Origin: Methylocystaceae bacterium
Lineage (GTDB): Bacteria; Pseudomonadota; Alphaproteobacteria; Rhodospirillales; Terasakiellaceae
DNA: 64,000 bases
Reading direction: 5' to 3'
Assembly: GCA_013373205.1 (NCBI GenBank)
Contig: JABXIG010000011.1
Coordinates: 186,001-250,000 of the forward strand
In this document: positions 33,315 through 53,217 of the stretch, in pieces
Layout: each line of letters starts with the position of its first letter
Numbering within the stretch: the stretch's first letter is position 1
Notes under the pieces: model-generated
What the model saw: the letters and a program-made list of their open reading frames with translations, nothing else
Told to the model about the DNA's origin: nothing
Databases searched by the model: none
Translations under genes and position numbers: made by a program

Positions 33315-34586
33315 TTAAAAAGTCACAATTTTTTCACGCACACGGCCTTCGCGGGCGGCATGCTCTTCTTGCTGTTCAATACGTTTCCAATTGTCAAAAT
33401 CAACCGTTTCGACGCTGCGTTCTGACAGTAATTGATCCAGTCCTGAGGGGCCTTGTTTGTCACTTGGGCCTGCAAATTCATCAATGGCCCGTTTGGCCAT
33501 TTCCATGGATTCTTTGCGATTGGTCGGGATGGTGCCTTGCGGGCCGTGTTTTGCCCAGCCGGACACATACACACCAGCTTCCACTGCGCCTTCTTTATTT
33601 CTAACAATTGTGCCGTCCATGGGGAGCCCGTCAAAGGGTTGTGTCGCATAGCCAATGGCGGAAATAACGCTGGATACTTCAATTTCAAACGTTTTGCCTG
33701 TGCCAGTCACGCGACCGTCTTTCAATTCGGTGCGTTCCAGTTTCAAGCCTTCGACTTGATCATCGCCTAAAATGGCAATGGGTTTGGCCCAGAATTGCAT
33801 ATGCAGGGTCTTGTCTTTATCGCCTCTGTCTTGATCTTTCAGCCCTTTAAGGATTTCCAGATTCTTTTCTTTATTCTTTAAGGATTTCGGGTCGTCATTT
33901 TCTGGCACTTCTGTAAGGTCATCATTCAAAATGACCGGATGGCAATGGGCAAGATGACCCAGCTCATTTGCTTCTGAAGGCGTAAAGGCAGCTTGTGCCG
34001 CCCCGCGGCGCCCGATCATGTAAAAGTCTGTTATGTTTGTGGCACGGATACGGTCTTCGGCGTGAACGCAAAGGTCAGAACCTTCCATTTCTTCCATGGA
34101 TTTAGCAAGCACGCGCACAATATCGATGGCGACGTTGCCGTTACCAATGATCGCGACACCTTTCGGGCCGAGTTTGGGGGCGAGATCAACAAAATCAGGA
34201 TGACCGTTATACCAGCCGACAAATTCAGCTGAACCATACACACCTTTCAGGTCTTCCCCGGCGATACCGAGCTTACGATCAAGCGAGGCACCGATGGCAA
34301 GAAAAACGATATCGTAAAGGTCTTTCAATTCCTCGTAGCTGACATCGCGGCCGATCTCCACATTGCCGACAAAACGAACGTCATCATTTTGCATGGTGCG
34401 TTCAAACTGGCGTGTGACATTTTTTGTGCCCTGATGATCCGGGGCCACACCGGCGCGCACCAGCCCAAAAGGGGTGTGCAGACGGTCGATAATGTCGATC
34501 TGACAACCGGGCAGTTTCTTGGCAAATGTATCGGCGGCATAAAAGCCGCTGGGACCTGAACCGATAATGGCGATTTTAGCGCTCAT
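33315..34586 (-). CDS. Ferredoxin/flavodoxin-NADP+ reductase, adrenodoxin-reductase type (FprA-like)
   Basis: The 423-residue flavoprotein has an FAD site at the N terminus (IIGSGPSGFYAADTFAKKL), the family stretch TPFGLVRAGVAPDHQGTKNV, an NADP site (VAIIGNGNVAIDIVRVLA) and the C-terminal SGWAKHGPQGTIPTNR. Known members pass electrons from NADPH to ferredoxins or flavodoxins. Its ATG overlaps the paaX stop by four bases, so it is made with the phenylacetate repressor. I infer that it feeds the island's diiron proteins through the flavodoxin at 49834. It is not PaaE: it lacks a plant-type [2Fe-2S] domain. Confidence 0.9.
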   Translation of the reverse strand: MSAKIAIIGSGPSGFYAADTFAKKLPGCQIDIIDRLHTPFGLVRAGVAPDHQGTKNVTRQFERTMQNDDVRFVGNVEIGRDVSYEELKDLYDIVFLAIGASLDRKLGIAGEDLKGVYGSAEFVGWYNGHPDFVDLAPKLGPKGVAIIGNGNVAIDIVRVLAKSMEEMEGSDLCVHAEDRIRATNITDFYMIGRRGAAQAAFTPSEANELGHLAHCHPVILNDDLTEVPENDDPKSLKNKEKNLEILKGLKDQDRGDKDKTLHMQFWAKPIAILGDDQVEGLKLERTELKDGRVTGTGKTFEIEVSSVISAIGYATQPFDGLPMDGTIVRNKEGAVEAGVYVSGWAKHGPQGTIPTNRKESMEMAKRAIDEFAGPSDKQGPSGLDQLLSERSVETVDFDNWKRIEQQEEHAAREGRVREKIVTF

Positions 34587-35554
34587 AGGGTGAGTAACTC
34601 CTCATTCGAAGTGGTTTCTGCAATGCCGTCCAGACCGCCAAAGCGGTTGAAGAAATAAGGGCTGACATCGGGAAGCGGGCCTTCTGCTGTTTCCAGCTGG
34701 TTTTCAAGATGTTTTTCTGCACTAGGCGTGCACAAGCGATAAAGATTGGCACAAAGCGAGGCGGCGGTTGATCCGGGCCAGTCTGTGTTTAACAGTTCAT
34801 CCGGTAACATGGGGTCGCGCAACATGATACGGCGATATTCATGGATCAAAAGGGTGCGGACCATAAAAGCACTTTCCGGGTTGATCTCGCTTTCCCCACT
34901 TAAGGCATGATAGAGTGGGCGAAAGGCATCGAGGAAATGATTATAGTCTTTGGATAATTGATCGAGATCCCAGCTGCTATGCACCATATTACGATGCGGG
35001 GCGGTGCCTGAATGACGATCGGCACGGGCACCCATGGTGACCACCTGATCTGTCACGTCCAGATCCTGAATAATTTGGCGCACAGCCCGAATGTCGGCGG
35101 CCGGATGGGCAAATACGTTGGGCGAAACGGTTCCAAAACCCAGCCACTGAAATTCCCGGCGCAACTGATCGCGGGTTTCCTGTGGCAGATTGGCTTTATT
35201 CACAACAACCATCAACCACTCCCCATTCCAGGATTTTTGTGGGGAGGCGTAAATCCGGCGGTGTGCTGTTTCGAAACGGCGGCGGCCTATCTCGGTAAGT
35301 TTATAGTAACTGCGCCGCCCGATCTGGGTTGACGTCAGCCATTGATCTTTGGACAGTCGAAAGACAGCGGTGCGGACCATACGTTCAGATAGGCCAAGAG
35401 GTTCCACCAAGTTGATGAGACTGCCCAACCAGACCGATCCCCCATGGGGTAGGATCGCATCACCATAAACGGTCACCAAAAGAGACTTGGCGCGCAAAGT
35501 GGTTTTGTCGCGTAACTCTATAATAGCATCCTGAATTTTTTTGTTTTTGCTCAT
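34583..35554 (-). CDS. paaX: Phenylacetate pathway repressor PaaX
   Basis: The 323-residue PaaX-family regulator has an N-terminal winged helix (GLSERMVRTAVFRLSKDQWL, then IGRRSYYKLTEIGRRRFE), a central ferredoxin-like domain (WNGEWLMVVVNKANL) and the C-terminal PaaX domain with HEYRRIMLRDPMLPDELL. Family members repress paa genes and release DNA on binding phenylacetyl-CoA. It is divergent from the diiron gene at 35925 across a 370-base AT-rich gap and cotranscribed with the reductase. It is strong evidence that this region is a phenylacetate system. Confidence 0.93.
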   Translation of the reverse strand: MSKNKKIQDAIIELRDKTTLRAKSLLVTVYGDAILPHGGSVWLGSLINLVEPLGLSERMVRTAVFRLSKDQWLTSTQIGRRSYYKLTEIGRRRFETAHRRIYASPQKSWNGEWLMVVVNKANLPQETRDQLRREFQWLGFGTVSPNVFAHPAADIRAVRQIIQDLDVTDQVVTMGARADRHSGTAPHRNMVHSSWDLDQLSKDYNHFLDAFRPLYHALSGESEINPESAFMVRTLLIHEYRRIMLRDPMLPDELLNTDWPGSTAASLCANLYRLCTPSAEKHLENQLETAEGPLPDVSPYFFNRFGGLDGIAETTSNEELLTL

Positions 35555-35819
35555 ATCTTGAATAGGCCTTTGTGATGGTCGGTGGGTCTCATTTTGCTGC
35601 TAAGTCATAGCACAACTGCTTTTCCTTTACAGCGATAAGTCCATCACGGGTTATAATAGTTACCGTTTTTGATTATGTCATTATAAAAAGTGTAACATAT
35701 TATTTTTTATATCAAATGAAATCAATTTATACATTGTTAAAATACTGAAAAATATAACAGTTTATATAGGTTTTTTGATGGTTGTCTTGAAAGGCATAAA
35801 AAAGCGTTTGACGAATATA

Positions 35820-35864
35820 ATATGATACACTAATCTCTTAAAAGAATCATTAAGTGTGTCATAT
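35820..35864. promoter_or_regulatory. Imperfect inverted repeat, candidate operator
   Basis: ATATGATACACTAAT (35820-35834) faces ATTAAGTGTGTCATAT (35849-35864): 14 of 15 positions match after one gap and one substitution. It lies 60-105 bases before the diiron gene and overlaps a possible promoter (TTGACG at 35808). It is the best operator candidate in the 370-base gap 35555-35924 between paaX and the diiron gene; the rest of the gap is AT-rich with no gene. PaaX or the MarR protein at 52741 could bind it. Confidence 0.45.
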
Positions 35865-35924
35865 AAAGCGTTCAAGGCGAATAACCGCACTTGAATGGCC
35901 AAAGGAAACAGTTGGAGGAAACAG

Positions 35925-36752
35925 ATGGCTAATTGGAAGACTTACGACAAAGGTGATGAATTACCTGAAGAGTACAAAACTCTTTTGCTCAATCTGATGA
36001 GCTTTCAGGCTGATTCAGAATATGCAGGTGCACAGCGTGTTGCTGAAAACATGCGTTTTGCTCCGCGCCCTGAAGAAGCCTATCGTTTGTCGAAAAAGGT
36101 TATGGAAGAAATGGGTCACGGCTATTATGTCTGGAACCTGATGTCCGACCTGGGTGTTGATGTGAACGCACGTCTGCGTGAACTGGTAACGAACCCGAAC
36201 AACCCAGATCCGGAAAAAGTAACAATCATCAACGGTTTCCGTAAGGAAAACTGGTCTAAATTGTTTGAATGCTGGGAAGATGTTGCCCTGTTTTCAACTG
36301 TTGTGACCCCGGCGGCTGTTGCGTTTTTGGGCCAGTACCGTGAATGTTCTTACCTGCCATGGGCGCGTGTGAATGTACGTATTCATAAAGAAGAATACGG
36401 TCACCTTGCTTTTGGTGTTTGGGCTTCCAAGCGCTGCATCGAGTTTGGCGGTGAAGAAACACGTGAATTCATGCAAAAGCGTATTGAAAAGTTCATGAAA
36501 GTCGGTCTTGGTTTCTACGGTCGTCCGTCCAAGCCGGGTGAAAAACAATCTGCCATGTTCGATAAATATTATGAATACGGCATCAAAGTGAAAAAGCCGG
36601 AAGAGCTGCAGGAAGAATATCTGGAACTGCTGGAATCTCGCTTGAAAGAAGTTGGTCTGGAAATGCCGCAAGGCGTTGAAGCTGACTACGACATGCGTGT
36701 TGGCTATGAAGCTGCAGATCTGGATATGCAAGTATCCAAAGCCGCAAGCTAA
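35925..36752 (+). CDS. Ferritin-like diiron protein 1, PaaA/PaaC family
   Basis: The 275-residue protein belongs to the phenylacetic-acid catabolic PaaA/PaaC family. It keeps carboxylate and His residues in diiron order: E32 (ADSEYAG), E62-x-x-H65 (EEMGHGYY) and E157-x-x-H160 (KEEYGHLA), matching E42, E72/H75 and the second ExxH of E. coli PaaA. A further Glu (E140, YRECSY) precedes a CSY motif shared with diiron protein 2. I infer the catalytic subunit of a phenylacetyl-CoA epoxidase-like enzyme. GGAGGA lies 5 bases before the ATG at 35925; an ATG at 35895 has no binding site. No paaB, paaD or paaE follows. Confidence 0.85.
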   Translation: MANWKTYDKGDELPEEYKTLLLNLMSFQADSEYAGAQRVAENMRFAPRPEEAYRLSKKVMEEMGHGYYVWNLMSDLGVDVNARLRELVTNPNNPDPEKVTIINGFRKENWSKLFECWEDVALFSTVVTPAAVAFLGQYRECSYLPWARVNVRIHKEEYGHLAFGVWASKRCIEFGGEETREFMQKRIEKFMKVGLGFYGRPSKPGEKQSAMFDKYYEYGIKVKKPEELQEEYLELLESRLKEVGLEMPQGVEADYDMRVGYEAADLDMQVSKAAS

Positions 36753-36780
36753 ACGGACATAACATTAAGGAGGCGTTAGC

Positions 36781-37182
36781 ATGATTCCGGAATTACCCAA
36801 TAAGCTGTTTTCAAATGGTCGCAGTGTGTTGTCAAAGTTTGGTTATGTGCATTTTGAAGATGGGCAGACCCGTAATGACTGGGCAGAAATGTGGGAGCAT
36901 CTGCGTGCAGATTTCCCGCTACCAAAAGGGGACGTCCCGACATATGACACCTTGTCGGACGATCTGGTAGGAGCCGCACAAGAGTATATGAAAATCAGAT
37001 TACTTGCGGATCATTATCTGGATGAATGCGAACGCCTTCATGTCAGTATCTACAACGGCAGTATTGAAACCAATCTGGTGGAAAAATACGCCCAAGCGCG
37101 TGATCGCTATGAACATAGCGTCGAAGACTTTGGTGAAGCACGTGAAAAAATGCAAGCCCTGTTGACGAAGCGCGCAGCCTGA
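36781..37182 (+). CDS. Orphan protein linked to diiron protein 1
   Basis: I do not recognise this 133-residue protein. It is soluble and acidic: an N-terminal part with aromatic residues (SKFGYVHFEDGQTRNDWAEM) is followed by two long helices (residues about 60-85 and 95-130). It lies 28 bases after diiron protein 1 with a near-perfect TAAGGAGG 8 bases before its ATG, so it is expressed strongly with it. Its place matches that of a small auxiliary subunit such as PaaB, to which I see no similarity. It is the prime candidate for a new component of the system. Confidence 0.75.
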   Translation: MIPELPNKLFSNGRSVLSKFGYVHFEDGQTRNDWAEMWEHLRADFPLPKGDVPTYDTLSDDLVGAAQEYMKIRLLADHYLDECERLHVSIYNGSIETNLVEKYAQARDRYEHSVEDFGEAREKMQALLTKRAA

Positions 37183-37335: not shown

Positions 37336-38505
37336 ATGACATCACGTCAAAACGGATTCAAAAATACACTCTGTGCCCTCGGTATGGTTGCCGGGGCTTT
37401 TGCAGTTGGGACAACACAGGCTGAAGCGGCTGATCCGATCAAGATCGGTACGTTTTTGTCAGTAACAGGCCCGGCTTCATTTTTGGGTGATCCAGAATTA
37501 AAAACACTTGAGCTCTATATCGAACAAATCAATGAAGGCGGCGGCGTTTTGGGCCGTCAAATTGAATTGATACAATATGACGTAGGTGTCGATTCCAAGA
37601 AAGCAATTACAGCTGTGAAACGTCTGGTCAGCCAGGACGAGGTTGACGTCATCGTAGGCGGGTCCACATCTGGTGCAACCATGGCTGTTGTTCCGATCGT
37701 ACAAAAAGCAAAAGTGCCGTTCATTTCACTGGCGGGTGCAGTTGCGATTGTTGAACCGGTCAAGCCTTGGGTCTTTAAAACGCCACATACCGATAAAATG
37801 GCCTGTGGTAAAATTTTTGAAGATTTGCAAGCGCGCGGTCTGACAACCATTGCCATGATTTCCGGTACAGGTGGTTTTGGTAAATCTATGAATGGCCAAT
37901 GTACCAAACTGGCCCCGGCTTATAACATCAATATCGCTGCGGCTGAATCTTATGGTCCAAAAGATACCGACATGACCGCACAGCTCACCAAGATCAAAGG
38001 TGTAGACGGTGTTCAAGCTGTTGTGAACGCAGGTTTTGGTCAAGGTCCGGCGATTGTGACGAAAAACTATCGTCAGCTGGGTATGACCATGCCGCTTTAT
38101 CAGTCACACGGTGTTGCCTCACGTAAGTTTATCGAACTTGCTGGCGATGCGGCCGAAGGTGTTCGTCTGCCCGCAGCGGCCCTGTTGGTTGCAGATATGC
38201 TGGAAGACAGCGATCCACAAAAAGCTGTCGTTCAAGCTTACACGAAAGACTATTCTGAAGCTTACGGTGGGTCGGTGTCCACATTTGGTGGTCATGCCTA
38301 TGACGGTTTGCAAATCGCTATTTCGGCTATCGCACGTGCGGGCTCTACGGATAAGCAAGCGGTGCGTGACGAGATCGAAAAAACAAGTGGTTATGTCGGC
38401 ACCGGTGGTGTTGTGAACATGTCAGCCACAGACCACCTCGGTCTTGATCTTTCAGCCTTCAAGATGCTGGAGATTAAAAATGGCGATTGGACAATCGTAA
38501 AATAA
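37336..38505 (+). CDS. ABC importer substrate-binding protein (Liv family)
   Basis: The 389-residue periplasmic type I binding protein has a signal peptide (to about residue 33, ending AEAA) and the Leu/Ile/Val-family pattern IKIGTFLSVTGPASFLGDP, GGGVLGRQIELIQYDVG, then VIVGGSTSGATMAVVP. GGGAGG lies 9 bases before the ATG. Its genes sit between the two halves of the paa island, so the ligand may be phenylacetate or a related aromatic acid rather than an amino acid; this is inference. Confidence 0.92.
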   Translation: MTSRQNGFKNTLCALGMVAGAFAVGTTQAEAADPIKIGTFLSVTGPASFLGDPELKTLELYIEQINEGGGVLGRQIELIQYDVGVDSKKAITAVKRLVSQDEVDVIVGGSTSGATMAVVPIVQKAKVPFISLAGAVAIVEPVKPWVFKTPHTDKMACGKIFEDLQARGLTTIAMISGTGGFGKSMNGQCTKLAPAYNINIAAAESYGPKDTDMTAQLTKIKGVDGVQAVVNAGFGQGPAIVTKNYRQLGMTMPLYQSHGVASRKFIELAGDAAEGVRLPAAALLVADMLEDSDPQKAVVQAYTKDYSEAYGGSVSTFGGHAYDGLQIAISAIARAGSTDKQAVRDEIEKTSGYVGTGGVVNMSATDHLGLDLSAFKMLEIKNGDWTIVK

Positions 38506-38519
38506 GAAGAATGAAAAGC

Positions 38520-38553
38520 AGGTGGGGGTTCATTGAACCTTCACCTCTTTTTT
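38520..38553 (+). terminator. Terminator/attenuator between binding protein and permease genes
   Basis: A 13-bp stem with two G-U pairs (38520-38532 with 38534-38546) is followed by C and six T. It lies inside the ABC operon and probably lets most transcripts end after the binding protein, giving its usual excess over the membrane genes. Confidence 0.7.
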
Positions 38554-38628
38554 CGAGAAAATACCCGTGATTTCTCTAGGGACTAGGGAAAGACCAGGTG
38601 AACTATATCTACAAGAAAGTTGCCAGAA

Positions 38629-39504
38629 ATGAGCGCAGAATTTCTACAATTTCTGTTTTCCGGCGTGACGTTAGGCGCGACCTACGCTTTGGTAGGGCTT
38701 GGGTTTTCCATTATCTATAATGCCTCGCACGTCATTAACTTTGCCCAGGGTGAATTTGTCATGATGGGCGGCATGGGAACAGTTTTCTTCCTCGGGTTAG
38801 GATTGCCGATGCCGGTTGCCATTCTGGCGGCCATTGCCCTAACCACCCTGTTTGGTTTTGGATTGGAACGGTTTGCGATTGCACCGGCACGTGGTGCTTC
38901 GGTTGTCACCTTAATCATTATTACCATTGGTGCATCCATTGTGATGCGTGGTCTGGTGCAGGTTGTTTGGGGAAAAGAGTTTCACGCCATCCCGTCCTTT
39001 AGCGGGGATGAACCGATTATGATTGGCGGGGCAACGATCCTGCCGCAAAGCCTCTGGGTTTTGGGAGTGACGGTTCTGTTGGTGCTGGCCCTGCGCTATT
39101 TCTTTGAAAAAACAATTATGGGTAAAGCCATCATTGCAACCTCGCTTAATCGAGATGCAGCCCTGTTGATGGGAATTAATGTGCGCCTTGTACTGTTTAT
39201 CAGTTTCGGCTTATCCGCAGCCTTGGGCGCGGCAGCTGGCATTCTGGTCGCGCCGATTACGCTGACCAATTTTGAAGCCGGGATTATGCTGGGTCTGAAA
39301 GGGTTCTGTGCAGCTATTCTGGGGGGACTTGGGAACGGCATGGGCGCTGTCGCTGGCGGTATGATCGTCGGGATTGCCGAGGCCATGGGCGCAGGCTACT
39401 GGATTTCTGAATATAAAGATGCGGTTGCCTTTATCCTGATCCTGCTGGTTCTGTTCTTTAAACCGAGCGGTCTGTTCGGCAAAACCGGGACGGAGCGTGT
39501 ATAA
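38629..39504 (+). CDS. livH: ABC importer permease, LivH type
   Basis: The 291-residue inner-membrane permease has eight or so hydrophobic segments, starting FLQFLFSGVTLGATYALVGLG, and the LivH stretches NASHVINFAQGEFVMMGGM and GLKGFCAAILGGLGNGMGAV (the ATPase-contact loop). The ATG at 38629 is preferred to a TTG at 38620. It overlaps the livM-type gene by one base. Confidence 0.93.
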   Translation: MSAEFLQFLFSGVTLGATYALVGLGFSIIYNASHVINFAQGEFVMMGGMGTVFFLGLGLPMPVAILAAIALTTLFGFGLERFAIAPARGASVVTLIIITIGASIVMRGLVQVVWGKEFHAIPSFSGDEPIMIGGATILPQSLWVLGVTVLLVLALRYFFEKTIMGKAIIATSLNRDAALLMGINVRLVLFISFGLSAALGAAAGILVAPITLTNFEAGIMLGLKGFCAAILGGLGNGMGAVAGGMIVGIAEAMGAGYWISEYKDAVAFILILLVLFFKPSGLFGKTGTERV

Positions 39505-40436
39505 TGAATAAATTGAAATCAGCCAGAACCGGGGGCATTTTGGTCCTTATGGCAATCATTGCTGTCTTGCCCTTGTTTTTGGACAATGCGTTTCAGTTCG
39601 AAATTGCAATTTTAATCTTCTTTAACGCCATCGTTTGTATTGGCCTGAACTTGTTGGTCGGTTACGGCGGGCAGATCAGTCTGGGTCATGGTGCCTTTGT
39701 CGGGCTTGGGGCTTACGGCAGTGCAATTCTGACCATGCAACAGGAATGGGACCCGCTTTTGTCCATGGTCGTAGCAGCGGCGTTCACCGGCGGGCTCTGT
39801 TTCATCATTGCGCGACCGATCCTGAAATTAAAGGGTCACTATCTGGCGATGGCGACTTTGGGTATGGGGATCATTATTTCCATCGTGATTAATACCGAAG
39901 ATCAACTGACGGGTGGACCGGACGGTATGTATGTGGATGGCCTATCATTCATGACGGATCAAATCCAGTGGTACTGGCTGATCGGTGGATTGCTGGTCTT
40001 TAGTGTTTGGGCATCTCTGAACTTGATCCATTCACCAATCGGTCGTGCTTTACGCGCGGTTCATGGATCCGAAGTGGCAGCAGAAGTTGTTGGCGTGGAC
40101 ACCACCCAATATAAGGTGCTGATCTTTGTGGTTTCCGGTGTATTCGCGAGCGTTGTCGGCAGCCTTGGGGTTTATTATTCCAATTTCGTTACTCCGGATA
40201 TTGCAGGTTTCTTCCATTCCATCGAACTGGTGGTGATGGTGGTCTTTGGCGGGATGGCTTCGACCTTTGGCGCAGTCATTGGCGCGGCAATTCTGACAAT
40301 CCTGCCGCAGGTTTTGACGTTCCTGCATGATTTTGAACATCTGGTTTTTGGTTTAATCCTGATGCTGACCATGATCTTTTTACCAAAAGGGCTTGTCCCC
40401 ACCATCGCGGATTTTTTCAAGAAAGGGGATAAATAA
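39504..40436 (+). CDS. livM: ABC importer permease, LivM type
   Basis: The 310-residue permease has LLVGYGGQISLGHGAFVGLGAYG and KGHYLAMATLGMG, both typical of LivM, and the coupling loop near VVMVVFGGMASTFGAVIGA. Translation is coupled to the livH-type gene (TAATG) and to the ATPase that follows (TAATG). Confidence 0.93.
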   Translation: MNKLKSARTGGILVLMAIIAVLPLFLDNAFQFEIAILIFFNAIVCIGLNLLVGYGGQISLGHGAFVGLGAYGSAILTMQQEWDPLLSMVVAAAFTGGLCFIIARPILKLKGHYLAMATLGMGIIISIVINTEDQLTGGPDGMYVDGLSFMTDQIQWYWLIGGLLVFSVWASLNLIHSPIGRALRAVHGSEVAAEVVGVDTTQYKVLIFVVSGVFASVVGSLGVYYSNFVTPDIAGFFHSIELVVMVVFGGMASTFGAVIGAAILTILPQVLTFLHDFEHLVFGLILMLTMIFLPKGLVPTIADFFKKGDK

Positions 40437-41191
40437 TGAGCCTCTTGAAAGTTGAAAATCTCTCTATTGAATTTGGGGGGGTCAAGGCGATTGATGATCT
40501 AACCTTCACGATCGAACCGGGTACCATCCATTCCATTATCGGGCCAAACGGGGCAGGGAAAACCACGCTGTTTAACCTGATTACCGGGGTTTATACACCC
40601 ACATCTGGGACGGTGCTTTATGATGATGAAGGGGTGACCGGGTTTAAACCGTTTGAACTGGCTGCGCGCGGTATGAGCCGTACGTTCCAGAACCTGCAAA
40701 TTTTCTTTAATATGACCGCGATTGAAAATGTCATGGTCGGGGCGCATCTCCATTTGAACCGGGGTTTCTTTTCCTCCTTCTTTGGGTTGCCAACGATTAA
40801 AGAAGGCGATCGTCATTGCCGTGAAACCTGTCTTGAACTATTGGATTTTGTCGGGCTTCGCGATTATGCCGATACTGATACGGACTCTATGCCTTATGGG
40901 GCGTTGAAACGTTTGGAAATTGCGCGTGCGCTGGCCTCCAAGCCGAAAATTTTGTTGTTGGATGAACCGGCAGCAGGCTTGAACCCTGCGGAAAGTCGCG
41001 AGATTGATGAAGTCATCAAGAAAGTGGCAGAACGCGGCATCACCGTTGTGTTGGTTGAACATGACATGAAAATGGTGATGGAAATTTCGGATCATATTCT
41101 GGTGCTGGATTATGGGCGTAAACTGACAGAAGGGACAGCGCAGGAAGTGCGCAACAACCCTGATGTAATCGCGGCGTATCTGGGGGGCTAA
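40436..41191 (+). CDS. livG: ABC importer ATPase, LivG type
   Basis: The 251-residue ATPase has Walker A IIGPNGAGKTTLFNLITG, the LivG stretch SRTFQNLQIFFNMTAIENV, a signature-loop region MPYGALKRLEIARALA (YG in place of SG, as usual in LivG), Walker B ILLLDEPAAGLNP and switch His VLVEHDMKMV. It forms the importer with the neighbouring proteins. Confidence 0.94.
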   Translation: MSLLKVENLSIEFGGVKAIDDLTFTIEPGTIHSIIGPNGAGKTTLFNLITGVYTPTSGTVLYDDEGVTGFKPFELAARGMSRTFQNLQIFFNMTAIENVMVGAHLHLNRGFFSSFFGLPTIKEGDRHCRETCLELLDFVGLRDYADTDTDSMPYGALKRLEIARALASKPKILLLDEPAAGLNPAESREIDEVIKKVAERGITVVLVEHDMKMVMEISDHILVLDYGRKLTEGTAQEVRNNPDVIAAYLGG

Positions 41192-41195
41192 GACC

Positions 41196-41900: not shown

Positions 41901-41911
41901 GGATTATCATT

Positions 41912-43971: not shown

Positions 43972-44028
43972 TTGTTCTAGTCCTCCCAGACTTCCCTGTT
44001 TTTCTGTCTAACTGTGTTGTTATTATTA

Positions 44029-45222: not shown

Positions 45223-45643
45223 TTTTAATTACTTCCCCTTTGATGGTTCTGGATCGACCGCGAAAAAGGGCGACCACTTCCCCGTCCCCACGGGTAATGA
45301 TCACATCGTAAATGCCGGATCGTCCGTTTAATAAGGTTTCTTTTGCTTCTGCCGTCAGAATGTCGCCTTCGAAAGACGGGGCAGAAAAAGTGATGTCGCA
45401 CCCTGCGGCCACCGTGACTTTATTGTGACTGTTGCAGGCATAGGCAAAGGCGGTATCCGCCAGACTAAAAGTGGTGCCGCCATGGGTGGAGCCATGCCCG
45501 TTTAGCATGGATTTTTTTACCAACATGGTCGCGCGTGCGTAGCCCGGTTTAATGTCGGTAATTTCAATGCCCATTTCATGTGCTTTGAAATCGTTTTTAA
45601 ACATGGCTTCTTTGGTTTTTGTGGCGAGTTCTTGATCAGTCAT
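45215..45643 (-). CDS. paaI: Hydroxyphenylacetyl-CoA thioesterase PaaI
   Basis: The 142-residue hot-dog thioesterase has the family signature [21 protein letters not shown], with catalytic Asp in LADTAFA and [17 protein letters not shown]. PaaI rescues CoA from dead-end ring products. The start [14 protein letters not shown] at 45643 overlaps the paaH stop by 8 bases; an adjacent ATG at 45646 is equal. A longer extension to 45733 is rejected because it lies inside paaH. Confidence 0.92.
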
Positions 45644-47180
45644 CATAGAAATATGCCCCCGCATTGACTTTTCGGCGTAACAAGGGGCTGACACGGTAAC
45701 GGTCTTCGCCATAGGTGCGTCCAAGGTTTTCAATTACGGCAGAGATATAATCCGGCCCGATTTCATCAGCCCAGGCCAGCGGACCTTTGGGGTAATTGAC
45801 ACCGTTTTGCATCGCAAGATCCACATCCGCAATGGTGCAAACCTGTTTATTAACCGTATCGGCTGCTTCATTAACCAACATGGCGATGGTGCGTGCATTA
45901 ATCAAACCGGGGATATCATCAATGACACTGACTTCCATCCCGATGGCTTGGAATAATCCGCAGGCTTCAGAAACATGTTCTTCATCGGCACGATCAGACG
46001 GGGCAAGGGCGATATGGTTGGTGCTGGTATAATCGATGGAAAGGTCAAACAAAACTAGGGCTTCATTATTATCTTCAAACGGGAGGGAGGCTTCCAGTTC
46101 GGTGGCGAGCATGCCCGGTGTCAGCATCAAATGGGTGTGACCGATGGTGATACGATCCACCACACTGTCTTCTTCATCAATACGCATCACATCCAGCCCT
46201 GCCCTGATCAATCGCTCGACCAGAACTTCTGCGGGTCCCATGTGACCTTCGACAATGATTTTAGATGGTTTCAGGCCCGCAGGGGCGATCGAGGCTGTTT
46301 GTTTCTCTGCATTTTCGCCATAGTCATAAAAACCACGGCCCGATTTGCGACCCAGCACCCCACCATCAACCAGTTCCTTTTGAACAAGGCTGGGCAGGAA
46401 ACGCGGATCGTTATAAAAAGCAGACCAGACGGTGGTGGTCACCGCATAGTTCACATCATGGCCAATCAGATCCATCAGTTCAAACGGGCCCATGCGAAAA
46501 CCCGCTGATTGTTTCAGGACCGTATCAATCGTTGCCACATCAGCGCCGCCTTCTTCAAAGACACGCAAAGCCTCGGCATAATAGGGGCGTGCCACCCGGT
46601 TGACGATAAAGCCCGGGGTGGATTTGGCATGAACAGGTTTTTTACCCCATGCCAAGGACGTTTCGTAAATGCAATGTGCAACTTCATCTGAAGTTGTCAG
46701 ACCGGAAATCACCTCGATCAATTTCATAATCGGGGCCGGGTTGAAAAAATGCATCCCGACCAAGCGACTGGAATCTTTCAGTTTTGCTCCAATTGCTGTT
46801 AATGAAATAGATGACGTATTAGAAGCAAGAATGGTATCCGGGTCGCAGATATCTTCCAGTTCCCCAAAGACCGATTGTTTGATTTCAAGGTTTTCAACAA
46901 TGGCTTCGATCACCAATTTGGCAGGGGCAAGATCGCTTAAAGACCCGACCACTTTGATGCGGCCAATCAAGGCGTCTTTGTCGTCTTGGCTCATCTTGCC
47001 TTTTTCAACAAGGCGGTCCAGCCCTTTGGATGTTTTTTCCAACCCTGACTGGGCTGCACCTTCCATGGCGTCAAACAGCAGGACGGGATGACCCGCCTTG
47101 GCTGCAACTTGGGCAATCCCGGCCCCCATGGTTCCGGCACCGATGACGGCGATTGTTTCAGATGAAGAAAGGGCTGACAT
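45636..47180 (-). CDS. paaH: 3-hydroxyacyl-CoA dehydrogenase PaaH
   Basis: The 514-residue dehydrogenase has the NAD site VIGAGTMGAGIAQVAAKAGH, then LASNTSSISLTAI and VGMHFFNPAPIMKLIEVI with the catalytic His, and two C-terminal helical domains (FRMGPFELMDLIGHDVN; YPKGPLAWADEIG). The duplicated C-terminal half and the length are those of the phenylacetate-specific PaaH. It oxidises 3-hydroxyadipyl-CoA. It abuts paaG by one codon step (stop of paaG at 47181). Confidence 0.94.
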   Translation of the reverse strand: MSALSSSETIAVIGAGTMGAGIAQVAAKAGHPVLLFDAMEGAAQSGLEKTSKGLDRLVEKGKMSQDDKDALIGRIKVVGSLSDLAPAKLVIEAIVENLEIKQSVFGELEDICDPDTILASNTSSISLTAIGAKLKDSSRLVGMHFFNPAPIMKLIEVISGLTTSDEVAHCIYETSLAWGKKPVHAKSTPGFIVNRVARPYYAEALRVFEEGGADVATIDTVLKQSAGFRMGPFELMDLIGHDVNYAVTTTVWSAFYNDPRFLPSLVQKELVDGGVLGRKSGRGFYDYGENAEKQTASIAPAGLKPSKIIVEGHMGPAEVLVERLIRAGLDVMRIDEEDSVVDRITIGHTHLMLTPGMLATELEASLPFEDNNEALVLFDLSIDYTSTNHIALAPSDRADEEHVSEACGLFQAIGMEVSVIDDIPGLINARTIAMLVNEAADTVNKQVCTIADVDLAMQNGVNYPKGPLAWADEIGPDYISAVIENLGRTYGEDRYRVSPLLRRKVNAGAYFYDD

Positions 47181-47972
47181 TTATTTACCTGTAAAGTTTG
47201 GTTTGCGTTTTTCCATAAAGGCGCTGACGCCTTCGCGGTAATCATCGCTGAAACCAGCCAGTTTTTGCAAGTCACGTTCGAGATCAAGTTGTTGATCCAT
47301 GGTGTTGGTGGTGGCTGCATTCATGGCGCGTTTAATCAGGCCCAGACCAAAGGTGGCTTGTTGGGCGAGGTTGGCGCACAATTCTTCGGTTTCTTCCATC
47401 AGGGAATCGTTATCGACACATTTCCAGATCATGCCCCATTCTTCGGCTTGTTCAGCTGAGATTTTTTCACCCAGCATCGCCAGTGCCTTGGCGCGTGCCA
47501 TGCCGATCAGGTTGGGCAGGGACCATGTTCCGCCGCTATCAGGGATCAGACCGATTTTACAGAATGCCTGAATGAAACTTGCCGACTTTGCCGCATAAAC
47601 GATATCACAGGCCAGTGCAATGTTGGCACCCGCACCCGCAGCCACGCCATTGACAGCACAAACAACAGGCTTGTCGATGGACTGGATCAAACGAACCAGC
47701 GGATTATAAAACTTTTCAATGGTTTGGGATAGGTCGCGTGGACTATCATCACCTTGCACTGCGCGGTCCCCCAGATCCTGTCCGGCGCAAAAACCCCGGC
47801 CCGCCGCAGTTAACAAAATGGCGCGCACATTATTGTCTTTTTGACAATCTTTCAAAGCATCACGCAGTTCTCCATGCATGACTTCGTTAAAGCTGTTGAG
47901 CACATCGGGACGATTAAGCGTTATCTTGGCATAGCCGTCTTTTTTCTCAAAGAGGATGGTTTCTAAAGTCAT
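47181..47972 (-). CDS. paaG: Ring-epoxide isomerase PaaG (enoyl-CoA hydratase family)
   Basis: The 263-residue crotonase-fold enzyme converts 1,2-epoxyphenylacetyl-CoA to oxepin-CoA and later isomerises a double bond. It has AAGRGFCAGQDLGDRAV (oxyanion hole) and IGLIPDSGGTWSLPNLIGMARA with the catalytic Asp of the isomerase subgroup (PDSGG), which separates it from PaaF. The start is ATG 47972, one base after the paaF stop; the upstream extension is rejected. Its last 30 bases match the end of paaF almost exactly. Confidence 0.94.
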   Translation of the reverse strand: MTLETILFEKKDGYAKITLNRPDVLNSFNEVMHGELRDALKDCQKDNNVRAILLTAAGRGFCAGQDLGDRAVQGDDSPRDLSQTIEKFYNPLVRLIQSIDKPVVCAVNGVAAGAGANIALACDIVYAAKSASFIQAFCKIGLIPDSGGTWSLPNLIGMARAKALAMLGEKISAEQAEEWGMIWKCVDNDSLMEETEELCANLAQQATFGLGLIKRAMNAATTNTMDQQLDLERDLQKLAGFSDDYREGVSAFMEKRKPNFTGK

Positions 47973-47973
47973 T

Positions 47974-48777
47974 TTAATGTCCCTTAAATGTGGGTTTACG
48001 TTTTTCCATAAAGGCGCTGACGCCTTCTTGTTTATCAGAGCTTGCAAACAGGGTTGCAAAGGATTTTCTTTCCGCTTTGATACCGTCACTCAGGAGGGTA
48101 TCGGCCGCATTTAATACTGACTCTTTTGCCAGTCGTGCTGCAAGGGGTGGTTTTTTGGCAATTTTTTTAGCAAGGGTGAGGGCTTTATCGATGGTGAGTT
48201 CAGGTTCGCATACTTCGGCGATCAAGCCCGCTTTTTCTGCTTCGGTTGCGGACATAAATTCACCGGATAAAACCATGCGCATGGCTTTGGATTTACCGAC
48301 CATTTGGGTCAGGCGTTGTGTGCCACCTGCACCGGGTATGATGCCTAGGTTAATTTCCGGCTGTCCGAACTGGGCGGTGTTTCCGGCAAATAAAATATCG
48401 CAATGCATGGCCAGTTCGTTGCCGCCACCAAGGCAAAATCCATTGACTGCGCCGACTATAGGTTTGGCAAAATCACGAATAGCAGCCCAATAATGACCAC
48501 GCGGATCGTTGATCACATCGACCGGACTTTTATCTTTCATCTCGGTAATGTCGGCACCTGCGGCAAAGACTTTTTCCCCACCTGTTAAAAGAACACAACG
48601 CACATCATCGTCGTTGCTGGCTTGTGCCAGTACATCGGCCAGTTCTTTCAGCAGTTGGGTGCGCAGTGCATTGCGCGCTTTGGGTCGATTGAGCCGGATG
48701 GTTAGGACAAAATCTTCAGGCTGGCCGACAAGAATATCTTCCAGTCCGGCCAGGTATGGGGGGGATTCTCTGGTCAC
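47974..48777 (-). CDS. paaF: 2,3-dehydroadipyl-CoA hydratase PaaF
   Basis: The 267-residue crotonase has LTGGEKVFAAGADITEMKDKS (oxyanion hole and first Glu region) and INLGIIPGAGGTQRLTQMVGKSKA, with the PGAGGTQR motif of true hydratases. It hydrates 2,3-dehydroadipyl-CoA. The start is a GTG at 48777; an in-frame TAA lies 18 bases upstream, so no earlier start is possible. A possible promoter region with GATAC/GTATC boxes separates it from diiron protein 2. Confidence 0.93.
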   Translation of the reverse strand: MTRESPPYLAGLEDILVGQPEDFVLTIRLNRPKARNALRTQLLKELADVLAQASNDDDVRCVLLTGGEKVFAAGADITEMKDKSPVDVINDPRGHYWAAIRDFAKPIVGAVNGFCLGGGNELAMHCDILFAGNTAQFGQPEINLGIIPGAGGTQRLTQMVGKSKAMRMVLSGEFMSATEAEKAGLIAEVCEPELTIDKALTLAKKIAKKPPLAARLAKESVLNAADTLLSDGIKAERKSFATLFASSDKQEGVSAFMEKRKPTFKGH

Positions 48778-48843: not shown

Positions 48844-49611
48844 TCAATCACGTGCTTCAAGACCGATTCGCGCGAGCTGTTCGGCAATGCGGTTTTCCCA
48901 TTTTGCAAGCAGGTCACCATTAGGTGTTTTGCGCAAACCATAGGCTTTGGCTTGTTCAAACCGTTGTGAATCACTGCTGCCGAATGTGGCGGCAACTCGT
49001 TTGTACCAATAATCCACACTGGCTTGTGCCGCTTCAAGGCTATAGCCGTTTTCAAGAGCTTTACTTAAGCCATTGAAGCCCAATTCAGCATGTTCACCTT
49101 CGCGCGCGGCAATTTGTCCCATGACCGAAGAGAGCGGTGTGTAGGAACAGTGCGAGATTTCTTCCAGTTGGATGCTTGAGGCCAGCCCCATCAACATATT
49201 CATGACCACGCTATCGAGCCATCCTTCATAAGGGTAGTGCAGAACGTTTAAACGTTTGTCCCCGCCGATGCGGCGATTACCCAGATCAATGGTGCGTGAT
49301 AAGCGCGCATCCCATGGGTGACTTTGGACATATAGATCGGTGTTAACGCCAAAACTTTCCAGCAGGGCAAGGACCTGTTGGGCGTGATCAAACTTTTCTG
49401 AAACAATGCGCGCGGCTGTGCAGCGTTCGCGCATGCCAGGGGCTTTATTGATGATATCGACAAAACCAGCAGCACCAGCCAATTCCGAATCGACAAAAGC
49501 CACCATCAGGCGGCGCAGTTCCCCACGATATCCGGGCGTGAGCTCATCCGATGCGGTGAGCTTTTCGTTATTTGCAATACGTGCCAACAAGGCATCTTCG
49601 TTCTTAGCCAT
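48844..49611 (-). CDS. Ferritin-like diiron protein 2, PaaA/PaaC family
   Basis: The 255-residue protein is of the PaaA/PaaC family and a clear paralogue of diiron protein 1 (shared start EL..Y...L..LM, DSE.AGA, and CSY..P). Ligand candidates are E43 (VDSELAG), E150/E151 (QLEEISH), and E171-x-x-H174 (REGEHAE). The first pair is E72 with H76 (SEKFDH), four residues apart rather than three, so one half-site is altered, as in the non-catalytic PaaC subunit of E. coli. I infer a structural or modified partner of diiron protein 1. TGAGGA lies just before the ATG. It leads the paaFGHIJK operon. Confidence 0.83.
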   Translation of the reverse strand: MAKNEDALLARIANNEKLTASDELTPGYRGELRRLMVAFVDSELAGAAGFVDIINKAPGMRERCTAARIVSEKFDHAQQVLALLESFGVNTDLYVQSHPWDARLSRTIDLGNRRIGGDKRLNVLHYPYEGWLDSVVMNMLMGLASSIQLEEISHCSYTPLSSVMGQIAAREGEHAELGFNGLSKALENGYSLEAAQASVDYWYKRVAATFGSSDSQRFEQAKAYGLRKTPNGDLLAKWENRIAEQLARIGLEARD

Positions 49612-49671
49612 GGTTTCCTCACTGTCAAAGGTCTTCTTTTTTGTTTGTTTTGTTCTTATAAAATTAAATAC

Positions 49672-49720
49672 GATACAAAACTAGACAACTTTCTATAAAT
49701 TTAGTATCAAAAAAATTAGA
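49672..49720. promoter_or_regulatory. GATAC/GTATC boxes in the divergent promoter
   Basis: GATACAAAACTAGA (49672-49685) and GTATCAAAAAAATTAGA (49704-49720) lie in the 222-base gap 49612-49833 between diiron protein 2 and the flavodoxin. With the paaF copy there are three related words within 1 kb. The nearby MarR gene makes a MarR-type operator plausible. Nothing else is evident in the gap. Confidence 0.4.
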
Positions 49721-49833: not shown

Positions 49834-50283
49834 ATGACCGATATCGTGATTTTTGTAGGCACCGAATCAGGGAACGCCCAAATGGTTGCCGAGGCGCTGA
49901 ATGATGAATTAAGCCGCCTGGACCATAATGTGGAAATTATCGAAGACTTTGATGACGGTGTTGATGTGCTGGACGGTCATGAAGTTGTGATCATCAGTTG
50001 TTCCACCCATGGACTGGGGGAATTGCCGGATAACATTATCCCGCTTTATGATGCTATGAAAGAAGACAGCCCGGATCTGTCCCATATGAAATATGGGATC
50101 ATCGCGTTGGGCGATCAGACATATTCCGATACGTTCTGTAAAGCAGGTAAAGATATGGATGACGTTTTTGGTGCGTGTGGGGCCAAACGTGTTGGGGACC
50201 GTCTTGAAGTTGATGCCTGTACCCAGCCGCTACCAGATGAAGAAGCCATTGATTGGGTTAAAGAGTGGCTGACACTTCTTTAA
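49834..50283 (+). CDS. Flavodoxin (MioC-like)
   Basis: The 149-residue single-domain flavodoxin has the phosphate loop VGTESGNAQMVAEAL, the FMN loops STHGLGELPDN and ALGDQTYSDTFCKAGK, and an acidic C-terminal helix. It resembles MioC and the flavin domain of sulfite reductase. It is divergent from diiron protein 2 and followed by paaN and paaY. No flavodoxin is part of the known paa pathway; I infer that it carries electrons from the FprA-like reductase to the diiron proteins in place of PaaE. Confidence 0.9.
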   Translation: MTDIVIFVGTESGNAQMVAEALNDELSRLDHNVEIIEDFDDGVDVLDGHEVVIISCSTHGLGELPDNIIPLYDAMKEDSPDLSHMKYGIIALGDQTYSDTFCKAGKDMDDVFGACGAKRVGDRLEVDACTQPLPDEEAIDWVKEWLTLL

Positions 50284-50335
50284 CCCTCGCTTATCAATAT
50301 TTTTAAAAGAATTACTAACAGGGAAGAAATAAGTC

Positions 50336-51994
50336 ATGAGCCTTGCGTTATTTGAAAAGCATTGCGAGAAATTGGAACAGGCGGTAGATGCGGCCCTTAA
50401 GCGCGATTACTGGTCCGGCTATAAAGAAATGCCGAGCCCGCGCGTTTATGGTGAAACGGCACAGGACGATGGGATCAAGGCGTTTCAATCCCACCTTGGT
50501 AAGAATTTTGAAATCGATCAGCCGACAAATGGCGAATGGATTGGGGCAGAAGATGGCCCCTTTGGTGTCGAGCTGAATGTGAAATACCCCGCACCGGACG
50601 TGGATGCAATGATGGCGGCGGCCAAAGCCGCTGTTCCGGCGTGGCGTAAAGTTGGCCCCCAAGCACGCGCCGGCGTTTGTATGGAAATTCTGGAACGTTT
50701 AAACGCCAAAAGTTTCGAACTTGCCTTTTCTGTTATGCATACCACGGGTCAGGCGTTCATGATGGCGTTTCAGGCAGGCGGTGCACACGCACAGGATCGT
50801 GGTCTAGAAGCGGTTGTCTATGGCTTTGAAGAAATGACCCGTGCACCGGAAACGGCCAATTGGGTCAAGCCACAAGGCAAGCATGACCCGTTGGAAATGA
50901 CAAAGAAATTTACAGCTGTCGGCCGCGGTGTCGCTTTGATGGTCGGCTGTGCTACATTCCCGACTTGGAACGGCTATCCCGGTTTGTTTGCGTCCCTCGT
51001 GACAGGCAATGCGGTGATTGTTAAACCGCACCCCCGTGCTGTGTTGCCATTGGCCCTGACGGTGCGGGTGATCCGCGAAGTCTTAAGTGAAGTCGGCATG
51101 GATCCGAATTTGGTCTGTCTGGCTGTGGATACACTGGATGCACCCATCACCAAAGAATTCGCCCTTCATAAAGACACCAAGATCATTGATTTCACAGGTT
51201 CTAGTGAGTTTGGTAACTGGCTGGAAGACAATGCCAAGCAAGCACAGGTCTATACTGAAAAAGCCGGTGTCAATGCGATCATTATTGATGACTTTGATGA
51301 TGTCAAAGGGCTGTCACGTAATTTGTCTTTCACTTTCTCGCTCTATTCCGGGCAGATGTGTACCACGCCGCAAAATGTTTTTATTCCCAAAGGCGGGATT
51401 GACGTAAATGGCGAGAATATGAGCTTTGATGATGTTGCCAAGGCCATTGCGGGCGGGGTGGAAAAATTCCTGAGCGTGCCGGAGCGTGCGGTCGAAGTTT
51501 TGGGCGCCATTCAAAATCCGGCTATTCTGGATCGGATGGAAGACGCGAAAAAGCTGGGCGAAGTCGTTCTGGATACCACTGAAATCGATCATCCCATGTT
51601 TAAAGGGGTGAAATGCCACACACCTGTGATGATTAAAATCGATGGTGCGGATGTTGAAAAATATTCTGAAGAACAGTTCGGCCCGATTGTCTTTTTGATC
51701 GCCACCGAAGATACAAATGACAGTATCGCAAAAATGAGCCAGACCATTTCTGAAAATGGTGCGATCACCCTTGGCCTTTATTCCAAGCATGAAAGCGTGA
51801 TTGAAGATGTGGAAGAAGCGGCACTGGAAGCAGGTGTAAATCTGTCGATCAATCTGACAGGTGGTGTTTTTGTTAACCAGTCGGCTGCTTTTTCAGATTT
51901 CCATGCGACAGGCGCGAACCCGGCCGCCAATGCTGCGCTGACGGATAGCAATTTTGTATCGGGTCGTTTCCGTGTGATGCAAAGCCGTCGTTAA
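50336..51994 (+). CDS. paaN: Phenylacetate degradation aldehyde dehydrogenase PaaN
   Basis: The 552-residue aldehyde dehydrogenase matches the PaaN type. Catalytic Cys342 lies in SGQMCTTPQNVF, the general-base Glu308 in VYTEKAGVN, and the NAD region includes VIVKPHPRAVLP and DFTGSSEFGNWL. It oxidises the ring-opened semialdehyde. It has no C-terminal MaoC hydratase domain, unlike the fused PaaZ, so ring opening of oxepin-CoA needs a separate hydrolase, not found in the window. GGGAAG precedes the ATG, 52 bases after the flavodoxin gene. Confidence 0.92.
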   Translation: MSLALFEKHCEKLEQAVDAALKRDYWSGYKEMPSPRVYGETAQDDGIKAFQSHLGKNFEIDQPTNGEWIGAEDGPFGVELNVKYPAPDVDAMMAAAKAAVPAWRKVGPQARAGVCMEILERLNAKSFELAFSVMHTTGQAFMMAFQAGGAHAQDRGLEAVVYGFEEMTRAPETANWVKPQGKHDPLEMTKKFTAVGRGVALMVGCATFPTWNGYPGLFASLVTGNAVIVKPHPRAVLPLALTVRVIREVLSEVGMDPNLVCLAVDTLDAPITKEFALHKDTKIIDFTGSSEFGNWLEDNAKQAQVYTEKAGVNAIIIDDFDDVKGLSRNLSFTFSLYSGQMCTTPQNVFIPKGGIDVNGENMSFDDVAKAIAGGVEKFLSVPERAVEVLGAIQNPAILDRMEDAKKLGEVVLDTTEIDHPMFKGVKCHTPVMIKIDGADVEKYSEEQFGPIVFLIATEDTNDSIAKMSQTISENGAITLGLYSKHESVIEDVEEAALEAGVNLSINLTGGVFVNQSAAFSDFHATGANPAANAALTDSNFVSGRFRVMQSRR

Positions 51995-52000
51995 TTTGTT

Positions 52001-52020
52001 CCCCGGCGCCTGCGTCGGGG
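52001..52020. repeat. Intergenic palindrome between paaN and paaY
   Basis: CCCCGGCGCCTGCGTCGGGG folds into an 8-bp stem with one G-T pair. With its flank (TGACGTC) it resembles the inverted repeat at 19720 (GTCAxxCCCGxCGCAGGCG...), a common alphaproteobacterial extragenic palindrome. Confidence 0.6.
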
Positions 52021-52051
52021 TGACGTCTTTCTGTTTAAAAGGATTATCCCT

Positions 52052-52663
52052 ATGTCGATGTCCCCTAAAGTTTATGAAATTGACGGTATTGTTCCTGTTA
52101 TTGATGAAACGGCCTTTGTGCATCCGGATGCCGTTCTGATCGGTGATGTGATTGTGGGCCCGGGTGTTTATGTCGGGCCTGCCTGTTGTCTGCGCGGTGA
52201 TTTTGGGCGCCTGGTTTTGGAGGAAGGTTCCAATATACAAGACACCTGCGTCATGCATGGTTTTCCGGGAAGCGATACGGTGGTGCACAAAAACGGACAT
52301 ATCGGCCATGGGGCTGTTTTACATGGCTGTGTCATTGGGGAAGATGCACTTGTTGGGATGAATGCTGTGATTATGGATGGGGCGGTGATTGGGCCGGAAT
52401 GTATTGTCGCGGCTTCTGCGTTTGTGCGCGCGGGGTTGACGTTTGAGAAAAGATCGTTGATCGGTGGTGTACCAGCCAAAGTGATGCGGGAAGTTTCGGA
52501 TGAAGAATTTGCATGGAAACACGCAGGAACCAAAGAATATCAAGATCTTGCTATTCGATCATTGAAGACAATGAAGCCAGCTGTTGCGTTACGCGAGGTG
52601 GAAGAAAATCGTGCTCGTATGCCCAGCGGCGGGGTGAAGCCTTTGTTTGAAACCAAAGGATGA
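52052..52663 (+). CDS. paaY: PaaY, gamma-carbonic-anhydrase-like hexapeptide protein
   Basis: The 203-residue left-handed beta-helix protein has hexapeptide turns ([21 protein letters not shown]) and metal-ligand histidines in [26 protein letters not shown]. PaaY is a thioesterase that hydrolyses the dead-end ring-CoA formed from the unstable pathway intermediates. The C-terminal helix ([14 protein letters not shown]) is typical. The ATG at 52052 follows AAAGGA. Confidence 0.93.
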
Positions 52664-52740
52664 TCAGCAGGCTTGCGCAAAATCCTCTAGTGACGCTATA
52701 AAAGAACCCTGACAGTAAAAGATTGGGGATCATAAAGACC

Positions 52741-53217
52741 ATGTTATTGCGTGATGAGGAAGACGAAGACGATATCAAGCGCGATCTCATTCTTGATCAG
52801 TATCTGCCTTACCGCATGGCCGTGATTGCTCATATGATGAGTGAGGGGTTCGCCAAACGTTATTCGACAGAATATAATATGACAATTGTGGAATGGCGGG
52901 TGATGGCCAACCTTGGGCATTTGGAGCCGCAAAGTGCTCATGAAATCGGGGCCCATTCTCATTTGGATAAAGTACAGGTTTCGCGTGCCGTAGCCCGGCT
53001 CGAAAAAAAAGGCTGGGTGCAGCGTGAAGGCGATACGGTGGATCGCCGCCGTAGCCTTTTAACCCTGACAGAGGAAGGTCGCAGGGTCTTTAATACCTTG
53101 GGCAAGCACGCCATTGATTTTGAGGATGATGTCTGTGCATCCCTGACGACAGAAGAATATGCGGCGCTGGACAGAATTTTGAAAAAGCTATCCAAGCGGT
53201 CCGAAGCCTTGTCTTAA
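52741..53217 (+). CDS. MarR-family regulator
   Basis: The 158-residue regulator has a MarR winged helix: QSAHEIGAHSHLDKVQVSRAVARL, GDTVDRRRSLLTLTEEGRRV with the DRR wing. The start is ATG 52741; a TTG at 52723 is less likely. It lies 77 bases after paaY on the same strand and is a second candidate regulator of the island, besides PaaX, and the likeliest reader of the GATAC boxes. Its stop overlaps that of the small gene opposite. Confidence 0.88.
   Translation: MLLRDEEDEDDIKRDLILDQYLPYRMAVIAHMMSEGFAKRYSTEYNMTIVEWRVMANLGHLEPQSAHEIGAHSHLDKVQVSRAVARLEKKGWVQREGDTVDRRRSLLTLTEEGRRVFNTLGKHAIDFEDDVCASLTTEEYAALDRILKKLSKRSEALS

Follow-up and report, generated by a model that had tools for sequence, protein, structure and literature searches.

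The window analysed here is a stretch of 64,000 nucleotides from a Methylocystaceae bacterium, an alphaproteobacterium resembling Terasakiella (assembly GCA_013373205.1, contig JABXIG010000011.1, positions 186,001 to 250,000 of the forward strand), and positions 33315-53217 of it hold a phenylacetate degradation island that probably encodes an alternative phenylacetyl-coenzyme A (CoA) epoxidase. The standard enzyme is a PaaABCE complex in which the reductase PaaE carries flavin adenine dinucleotide (FAD) and a [2Fe-2S] cluster, and PaaD accompanies it. At the step between PaaK and PaaG, the PaaABCDE system would be replaced in the island by two proteins of the diiron PaaA/PaaC family, designated DI1 and DI2, and a conserved 133-residue helical protein, U133, working with an FprA-type reductase (RED) and a MioC-like flavodoxin (FLD). 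The reactive metal site would lie in DI1, with DI2, its ligands lost, as a structural partner in the manner of PaaC for PaaA, and U133 would have a bridging or coupling role. Electrons from reduced nicotinamide adenine dinucleotide phosphate (NADPH) would pass via RED, through its FAD, and then FLD, and PaaX, released by phenylacetyl-CoA, would control both halves of the set by binding operators between paaX and DI1 and between DI2 and FLD. The computational support consists of the gene content, the failure to find PaaB or PaaE, the co-occurrence of the genes, the operator motifs, the ligand pattern and the predicted fold of DI1; what is predicted from these is the reaction, the part played by each subunit, the path of the electrons and the binding of PaaX.

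The initial annotation had listed PaaX, K, J, I, H, G, F, N and Y, two PaaA/PaaC-family proteins, an FprA-type reductase and a MioC-like flavodoxin, and had seen no PaaB, PaaD or PaaE. This account of the gene content was confirmed: family models located all nine Paa proteins (PaaH, PaaF and PaaY under some cut-offs), DI1, DI2 and FLD (below the MioC cut-off), comparison with solved proteins identified RED, and PaaB, PaaD and PaaE were not among the 21 island proteins scanned. In the genome of the window (4.09 Mb, 69 contigs) and in five congeners, no match was obtained to PaaB (TIGR02157) at E ≤ 0.001 or to PaaE (TIGR02160) at E ≤ 1e-40; no genome-wide search for PaaD was made. Family PF05138 has three matches only in the whole genome, of which two are DI1 and DI2 and the third, a frame of 498 codons on another contig, is BoxB. 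A canonical PaaABCDE elsewhere in the genome is therefore rejected as regards PaaB, PaaE and the PaaA/PaaC family, and the phenylacetate pathway is otherwise complete. DI1 and DI2 belong to the PaaA_PaaC family by their PF05138 scores (Table 1) and fall far below the equivalog models, with 80.8 and 59.5 bits, respectively, against a cut-off of 280 for PaaA (TIGR02156) and, for DI1, 26.5 bits against a cut-off of 133 for PaaC.

The predicted structure of DI1 (predicted local distance difference test score 86.5) has as its best Foldseek match chain C of 3pw8, the PaaA chain of a PaaAC entry, with a template modelling score of 0.73 and E of 3e-10. The best solved relative of DI2 by sequence is SSO1313 of Sulfolobus (PDB 4mud, E 9.8e-10). 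In a tree of 59 rows, DI1 (support 100/100) and DI2 (98/94) form clades separate from PaaA and PaaC; the node that joins DI1 to PaaA has weak support (93/69), and some branches were flagged as long. The iron ligands expected for Escherichia coli PaaA are Glu42, Glu72, His75, Asp126, Glu155 and His158, and Lys68 bridges Glu49, Glu72 and Asp126, according to the text parts of PMC4498308 that were covered. These positions were counted in distinct rows longer than 200 residues and scoring above 200 bits (DI1) or 80 bits (DI2), which comprise 53 of the 77 and 38 of the 69 loci with matches, many of the matched loci being repeat retrievals of one genome. All 53 DI1 rows keep Glu42, Lys68, Glu72, His75, Glu155 and His158 and have threonine at 126, valine at 49 and tryptophan at 108, so that five of the six iron ligands of the catalytic subunit are retained. 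Position 126 is aspartate in all five canonical PaaA rows and in BoxB. A proline follows Thr126 in DI1, and the helix of the model breaks at residue 137 of the window protein, beside Thr138 (equivalent to 126). In DI2, Glu72 is replaced by lysine (37 rows) or arginine (one row) and Asp126 by glycine or alanine (38/38); Glu155 and His158 are retained throughout (38/38), and Glu42 and His75 in 32 of the 38. Because DI1 keeps five ligands and DI2 has lost ligands, the reactive site is more plausibly assigned to DI1, with DI2 as a candidate structural, non-catalytic partner, as PaaC is for PaaA. The two diiron-family proteins of the initial annotation are thus both present but are not equivalent, DI2 having lysine or arginine for one ligand and DI1 threonine for another.

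One scan of a genome collection (84,980 species) for relatives of DI1 gave 52 loci with 61-98% identity, in records titled Alpha-, Beta- or Gammaproteobacteria, Obscuribacterales, Melainabacteria or Cyanobacteria; the DI1 proteins of the window genome and of Terasakiella pusilla share 98% identity. The order RED-paaX, then divergently DI1-U133, is complete in 30 of the 52 loci, paaX adjoins DI1 in 37, and U133 follows DI1 in 39, some loci being cut by contig ends. PaaB and an over-cut-off PaaE are both missing from 47 of the 54 genomes with DI1 (56 handles, two genomes being present twice with the same coordinates, G002 = G060 and G003 = G061), and both are found in the same seven: two Novispirillum, Amphritea, Oceanospirillum, Pontibacterium, a metagenome-assembled genome of Oceanospirillaceae and Caenispirillum. 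In Caenispirillum (L115, G094:C7), the canonical paaABCDE genes directly adjoin paaN, FLD, DI2 and paaFGHIJ, and DI1 is on another contig. DI2 of the proteobacterial type occurs in 38 of the 54 genomes, and FLD is divergent from it within 1 kb in all 38, at 42 of 42 DI2 copies. RED is present in 34 of the 35 DI2 genomes searched, as compared with 1 of 16 others, and a PaaG-family match over cut-off was obtained for 41 of the 56 handles. The PaaB search covered all but L006 and L052, the PaaE search all but L005-L007 and L052, and the RED search all but L006, L052, G002-G004, L005 and L007; model A1 is without L015, L023, L029, L030, L049 and L052, and model A2 without L029. The two diiron genes, the flavodoxin and the reductase therefore recur together in genomes titled Alpha-, Beta- and Gammaproteobacteria, as the initial annotation had proposed to check. 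Among 240 genomes of the same class, PaaB occurs in 27, DI1 in 5 and both in none; with only five DI1 genomes, this anti-correlation was set aside as evidence in its own right.

An inverted repeat, TGATAC-N27/28-GTATCA, occurs in both the paaX/DI1 and the DI2/FLD intergenic regions. With at most one mismatch and a spacing of 27 or 28, it was found in 27 of 37 distinct paaX/DI1 regions (thinned from 40) and in 20 of 29 distinct DI2/FLD regions (thinned from 36); in 50 dinucleotide-preserving shuffles the means were 0.02 and 0.04, respectively, and the most was 1 in each. The hexamer arms were picked after viewing the window; the spacing and the shuffles serve as controls. Four DI2/FLD regions (L063, L064, L142 and L034) have three or more mismatches. 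In the parts of PMC9493321 covered, the E. coli PaaX site is given as TGATTC(N27)GAATCA and its inducer as phenylacetyl-CoA. The same script located a one-mismatch site of the E. coli form upstream of E. coli paaA. In the window, inverted hexamers 27 bases apart, as at PaaX-controlled promoters, lie at 35823-35861 and 49671-49709. The presence of the same operator, with the spacing of the E. coli PaaX site, in both promoter regions ties DI1 and DI2 to one predicted PaaX regulon, in which PaaX would bind at both sites.

U133 has no match to a Pfam or NCBIfam family and none in the PDB by sequence below E 0.2, and its model, a helical hairpin, has no PDB match at E ≤ 0.001. A relationship to PaaB was rejected on these grounds. 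We propose that U133 is a coupling or bridging subunit. Since this further conserved protein belongs to the set, the description of the system in the initial annotation as a simpler variant of phenylacetyl-CoA epoxidase is doubtful. U133, the PaaX-type operators, the hemerythrin-domain gene, the altered ligand pattern of DI1 and DI2 and the variant form of the cluster in Azospirillum had been overlooked there. Three Azospirillum genomes contain DI1 and U133, and no match in them was obtained to DI2 at E ≤ 0.001 or to RED at E ≤ 1e-20. Between paaX and a hemerythrin HHE-domain gene (L114:7031-9313; also L036, L037 and L039), they have genes for two other proteins. The first, of 364 residues, is of diiron type with two ExxH motifs; it is AurF/R2-like, with a weak AurF match (23 bits, cut-off 29.6) and no family over cut-off. 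The second is a 354-residue reductase with ferredoxin, FAD and nicotinamide adenine dinucleotide (NAD) domains, for which PaaE is the best model (143 bits, cut-off 421). The location of a PaaE-like reductase beside paaX, at the usual place of RED, suggests that RED is the reductase of the oxygenase.

Several observations weigh against the proposed epoxidase. The threonine of DI1 takes the place of a ligand, Asp126, of PaaA and BoxB, and its metal site is hence non-standard. Seven genomes have the DI1 system together with canonical PaaB and PaaE, and 4 of the 47 genomes without PaaB contain PaaE-family reductases under cut-off (158-277 of 421 bits). The co-occurrence counts cover partly related genomes, which are not independent events, and carry no correction for kinship. 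In the class sample, a PaaG match at E ≤ 1e-100 was obtained in 39 genomes, 19 with PaaB, 5 with DI1 and 15 with neither, so that a PaaG match alone does not imply an epoxidase and PaaG is too loose a marker. Among these 15, PF05138 is over cut-off in six, under it in one and without a match at E ≤ 0.001 in eight (G110, G222, G243, G267, G309, G324, G333, which is 70% complete, and G343). Ten genomes titled Obscuribacterales, Melainabacteria or Cyanobacteria (L043-L046, L048, L050, L051, L053, L054 and L056; DI1 identity 61-66%) hold DI1 without RED at E ≤ 1e-20 and without U133 at the locus; their flavodoxin match is remote at best, and a weaker DI2 (29-34% identity) is a neighbour of DI1 in five of the ten. 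Azospirillum keeps FLD (43-48% identity, beside paaG) without RED, an argument against an exclusive link of FLD to RED. The Azospirillum genomes and the ten non-proteobacterial ones speak against a fixed chain from RED through FLD to the epoxidase; the initial annotation had put forward an electron route of this kind.

The occurrence of both systems in seven genomes and the altered site of DI1 (Thr126, Val49 and Trp108) could also be understood if DI1 and DI2 formed a PaaX-controlled oxygenase for another CoA ester, for example of a hydroxylated or indolic acid, with phenylacetyl-CoA left to some unrecognised epoxidase or not epoxidized. This is highly improbable given that PaaB and over-cut-off PaaE are missing in 47 of the 54 genomes, that the paaFGHIJK run of the window has DI2 at its head and that BoxB is the only further PF05138 protein of the window genome. 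Alternatively, the DI1 form may be an epoxidase for low oxygen that complements PaaABCDE where both occur, as in the seven genomes. The position of paaABCDE beside paaN-FLD-DI2-paaFGHIJ in Caenispirillum and hemerythrin HHE matches in 8 of the 52 loci would be consistent with such a function. This function is unlikely, however, because the 47 genomes that have the DI1 form only could not be using it merely as an accessory.

The closest solved relatives of RED are FprA and adrenodoxin reductase, and FLD falls short of the cut-off of 158 for MioC (NF006531). The linkage of their genes would be consistent with an electron route from NADPH to RED, FLD and DI1. The set could still be an epoxidase if another ferredoxin were the direct donor and FLD served a different step such as that of PaaN. 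In favour of this, paaN is the next gene after FLD in the window, the two also adjoin in the five FLD-paaN regions inspected, FLD is retained in Azospirillum without RED or DI2, and FprA carries the name ferredoxin reductase. This arrangement is rather unlikely in view of the divergent placement of FLD and DI2 in all 38 genomes and their common operator region, and no ferredoxin was found among the 21 island proteins scanned.

An epoxidase formed by DI1, DI2 and U133 would resemble E. coli PaaABCE in the PaaA fold of DI1, in its five of six ligands and Lys68, in a second subunit of the same family with lost ligands, and in having the same pathway neighbours and PaaX. It differs in that no PaaB or PaaE was found, in the replacements of Asp126 by threonine in DI1 and of Glu72 by lysine or arginine in DI2, in the separate clades of these proteins, and in the presence of U133, an FprA-type reductase and a flavodoxin instead. 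The module very likely works like the PaaABCE epoxidase, yet fails the defining features of the PaaABCE complex. The BoxAB benzoyl-CoA epoxidase is similar in the PF05138 family, the epoxidation of a CoA ester and a reductase unrelated to PaaE, but BoxB forms a single subunit of some 470 residues with aspartate at 126, and BoxA has iron-sulphur domains. FLD and RED are of the MioC and FprA families of electron carriers, FLD being under the MioC cut-off and paa-linked, and the similarity of DI2 to SSO1313 amounts to 41.5 bits only. The set may even represent a class of its own among the epoxidases of aromatic CoA esters, which is a little less likely than not. Such a class would comprise a five-ligand PaaA-like subunit with Thr-Pro for the helix-E aspartate and the next residue, which would be active only together with an exchangeable ferritin-fold partner (DI2 or the AurF/R2-like protein of Azospirillum) and the new helical coupling protein U133, and would receive its electrons from an FprA-type reductase and flavodoxin.

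PaaA and PaaC have been put forward as markers by which phenylacetate degradation can be recognised in genomes. One survey of 2026, covering 6,536 genomes, kept in its final filter PaaK genes adjoining PaaABCDE, and it also files clusters with PaaA and PaaC only, mainly from Bacilli and Halobacteria, and a few without epoxidase (PMC13186573, text parts covered). A genome that has the DI1/DI2 form alone would escape such a survey or be listed apart from the proteins that actually belong to the set. The partial multicomponent clusters with PaaA and PaaC only are similar in having PaaA_PaaC-domain proteins without the rest of PaaABCDE, but flavodoxin, FprA-type reductase and U133 are not named in the covered parts of the text; nor are Terasakiella, Novispirillum and Oceanospirillum, the coverage being of text and not of tables. 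The initial annotation knew of no description of this form, and none was found among the matches listed in open PubMed Central papers, a search that lies outside preprints and most subscription papers; the set is apparently widely shared among bacteria yet undescribed. If the proposed epoxidase activity is confirmed, there is a second form of enzyme for phenylacetate degradation, in which the metal site is altered and the electron supply exchangeable, and it would reveal which features the PaaABCE reaction truly requires.

The features of the island are listed in Table 1. RED and paaX lie on the minus strand, followed by DI1, U133, the transporter genes and the HHE gene on the plus strand, paaKJIHGF and DI2 on the minus strand, and FLD, paaN, paaY and a MarR gene on the plus strand. 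RED overlaps the end of paaX by 4 bases, and the run DI2-paaFGHIJK, with DI2 as its first gene, looks like an operon. PaaK (TIGR02155), PaaJ, PaaI and PaaG (TIGR02280) are over cut-off. PaaH scores 663 bits with TIGR02279, just under the cut-off of 669, and is over cut-off with NF006124; PaaF (NF007239, 344 bits, cut-off 371) and PaaY (TIGR02287, cut-off 320) are under. PaaN (50336-51994, 552 residues) matches the PaaN_2 dehydrogenase model over its full length and falls short of E. coli PaaZ in size, and therefore seems to be without the hydratase half; no over-cut-off assignment to oxepin-CoA hydrolase was obtained among the 21 island proteins scanned. The five-gene transporter is perhaps for uptake of aromatic acids.

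Table 1. Features of the phenylacetate island, in window coordinates
Feature	Position	Strand	Evidence
RED, FprA/adrenodoxin-reductase-type NADPH reductase, 423 residues	33315..34586	-	PDB 1lqt FprA, E 3e-74
PaaX repressor	34583..35554	-	TIGR02277 319 bits, over cut-off
PaaX-type operator TGATAC-N27-GTGTCA	35823..35861		paaX/DI1 divergent promoter region
DI1, PaaA-like diiron-family protein	35895..36752	+	PF05138 83.6 bits, over gathering cut-off of 28.5
U133, conserved 133-residue helical protein	36781..37182	+	directly after DI1
Branched-chain-type ATP-binding cassette (ABC) transporter, five genes (substrate-binding protein, LivH, LivM, LivG, LivF)	37336..41900	+	PF13458, PF02653, PF00005
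Hemerythrin HHE-domain protein	41912..42511	+	PF01814 56 bits
paaK, paaJ, paaI, paaH, paaG, paaF	42667..48777	-	NCBIfam
DI2, second PaaA/PaaC-family protein	48844..49611	-	PF05138 71.8 bits, over gathering cut-off of 28.5
PaaX-type operator CGATAC-N27-GTATCA	49671..49709		DI2/FLD divergent promoter region
FLD, MioC-like flavodoxin	49834..50283	+	NF005989 145 bits, NF006531 133.5 bits, both under cut-off
paaN and paaY	50336..52663	+	TIGR02288 840 bits (over cut-off), TIGR02287 305 bits

Elsewhere in the window genome lies a benzoate box cluster (G000:C49, L112:1400-13522) with BoxA, BoxB, BoxC, a dehydrogenase of BoxD type and a member of the benzoate-CoA ligase family, which also contains PaaH- and PaaJ-like genes, its own ABC transporter and an HHE hemerythrin gene (L112:2886-3494). 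HHE hemerythrin genes occur in this cluster, in the paa cluster and beside the Azospirillum cluster (L114:6250-6816), and their products perhaps handle oxygen for these oxygenases.

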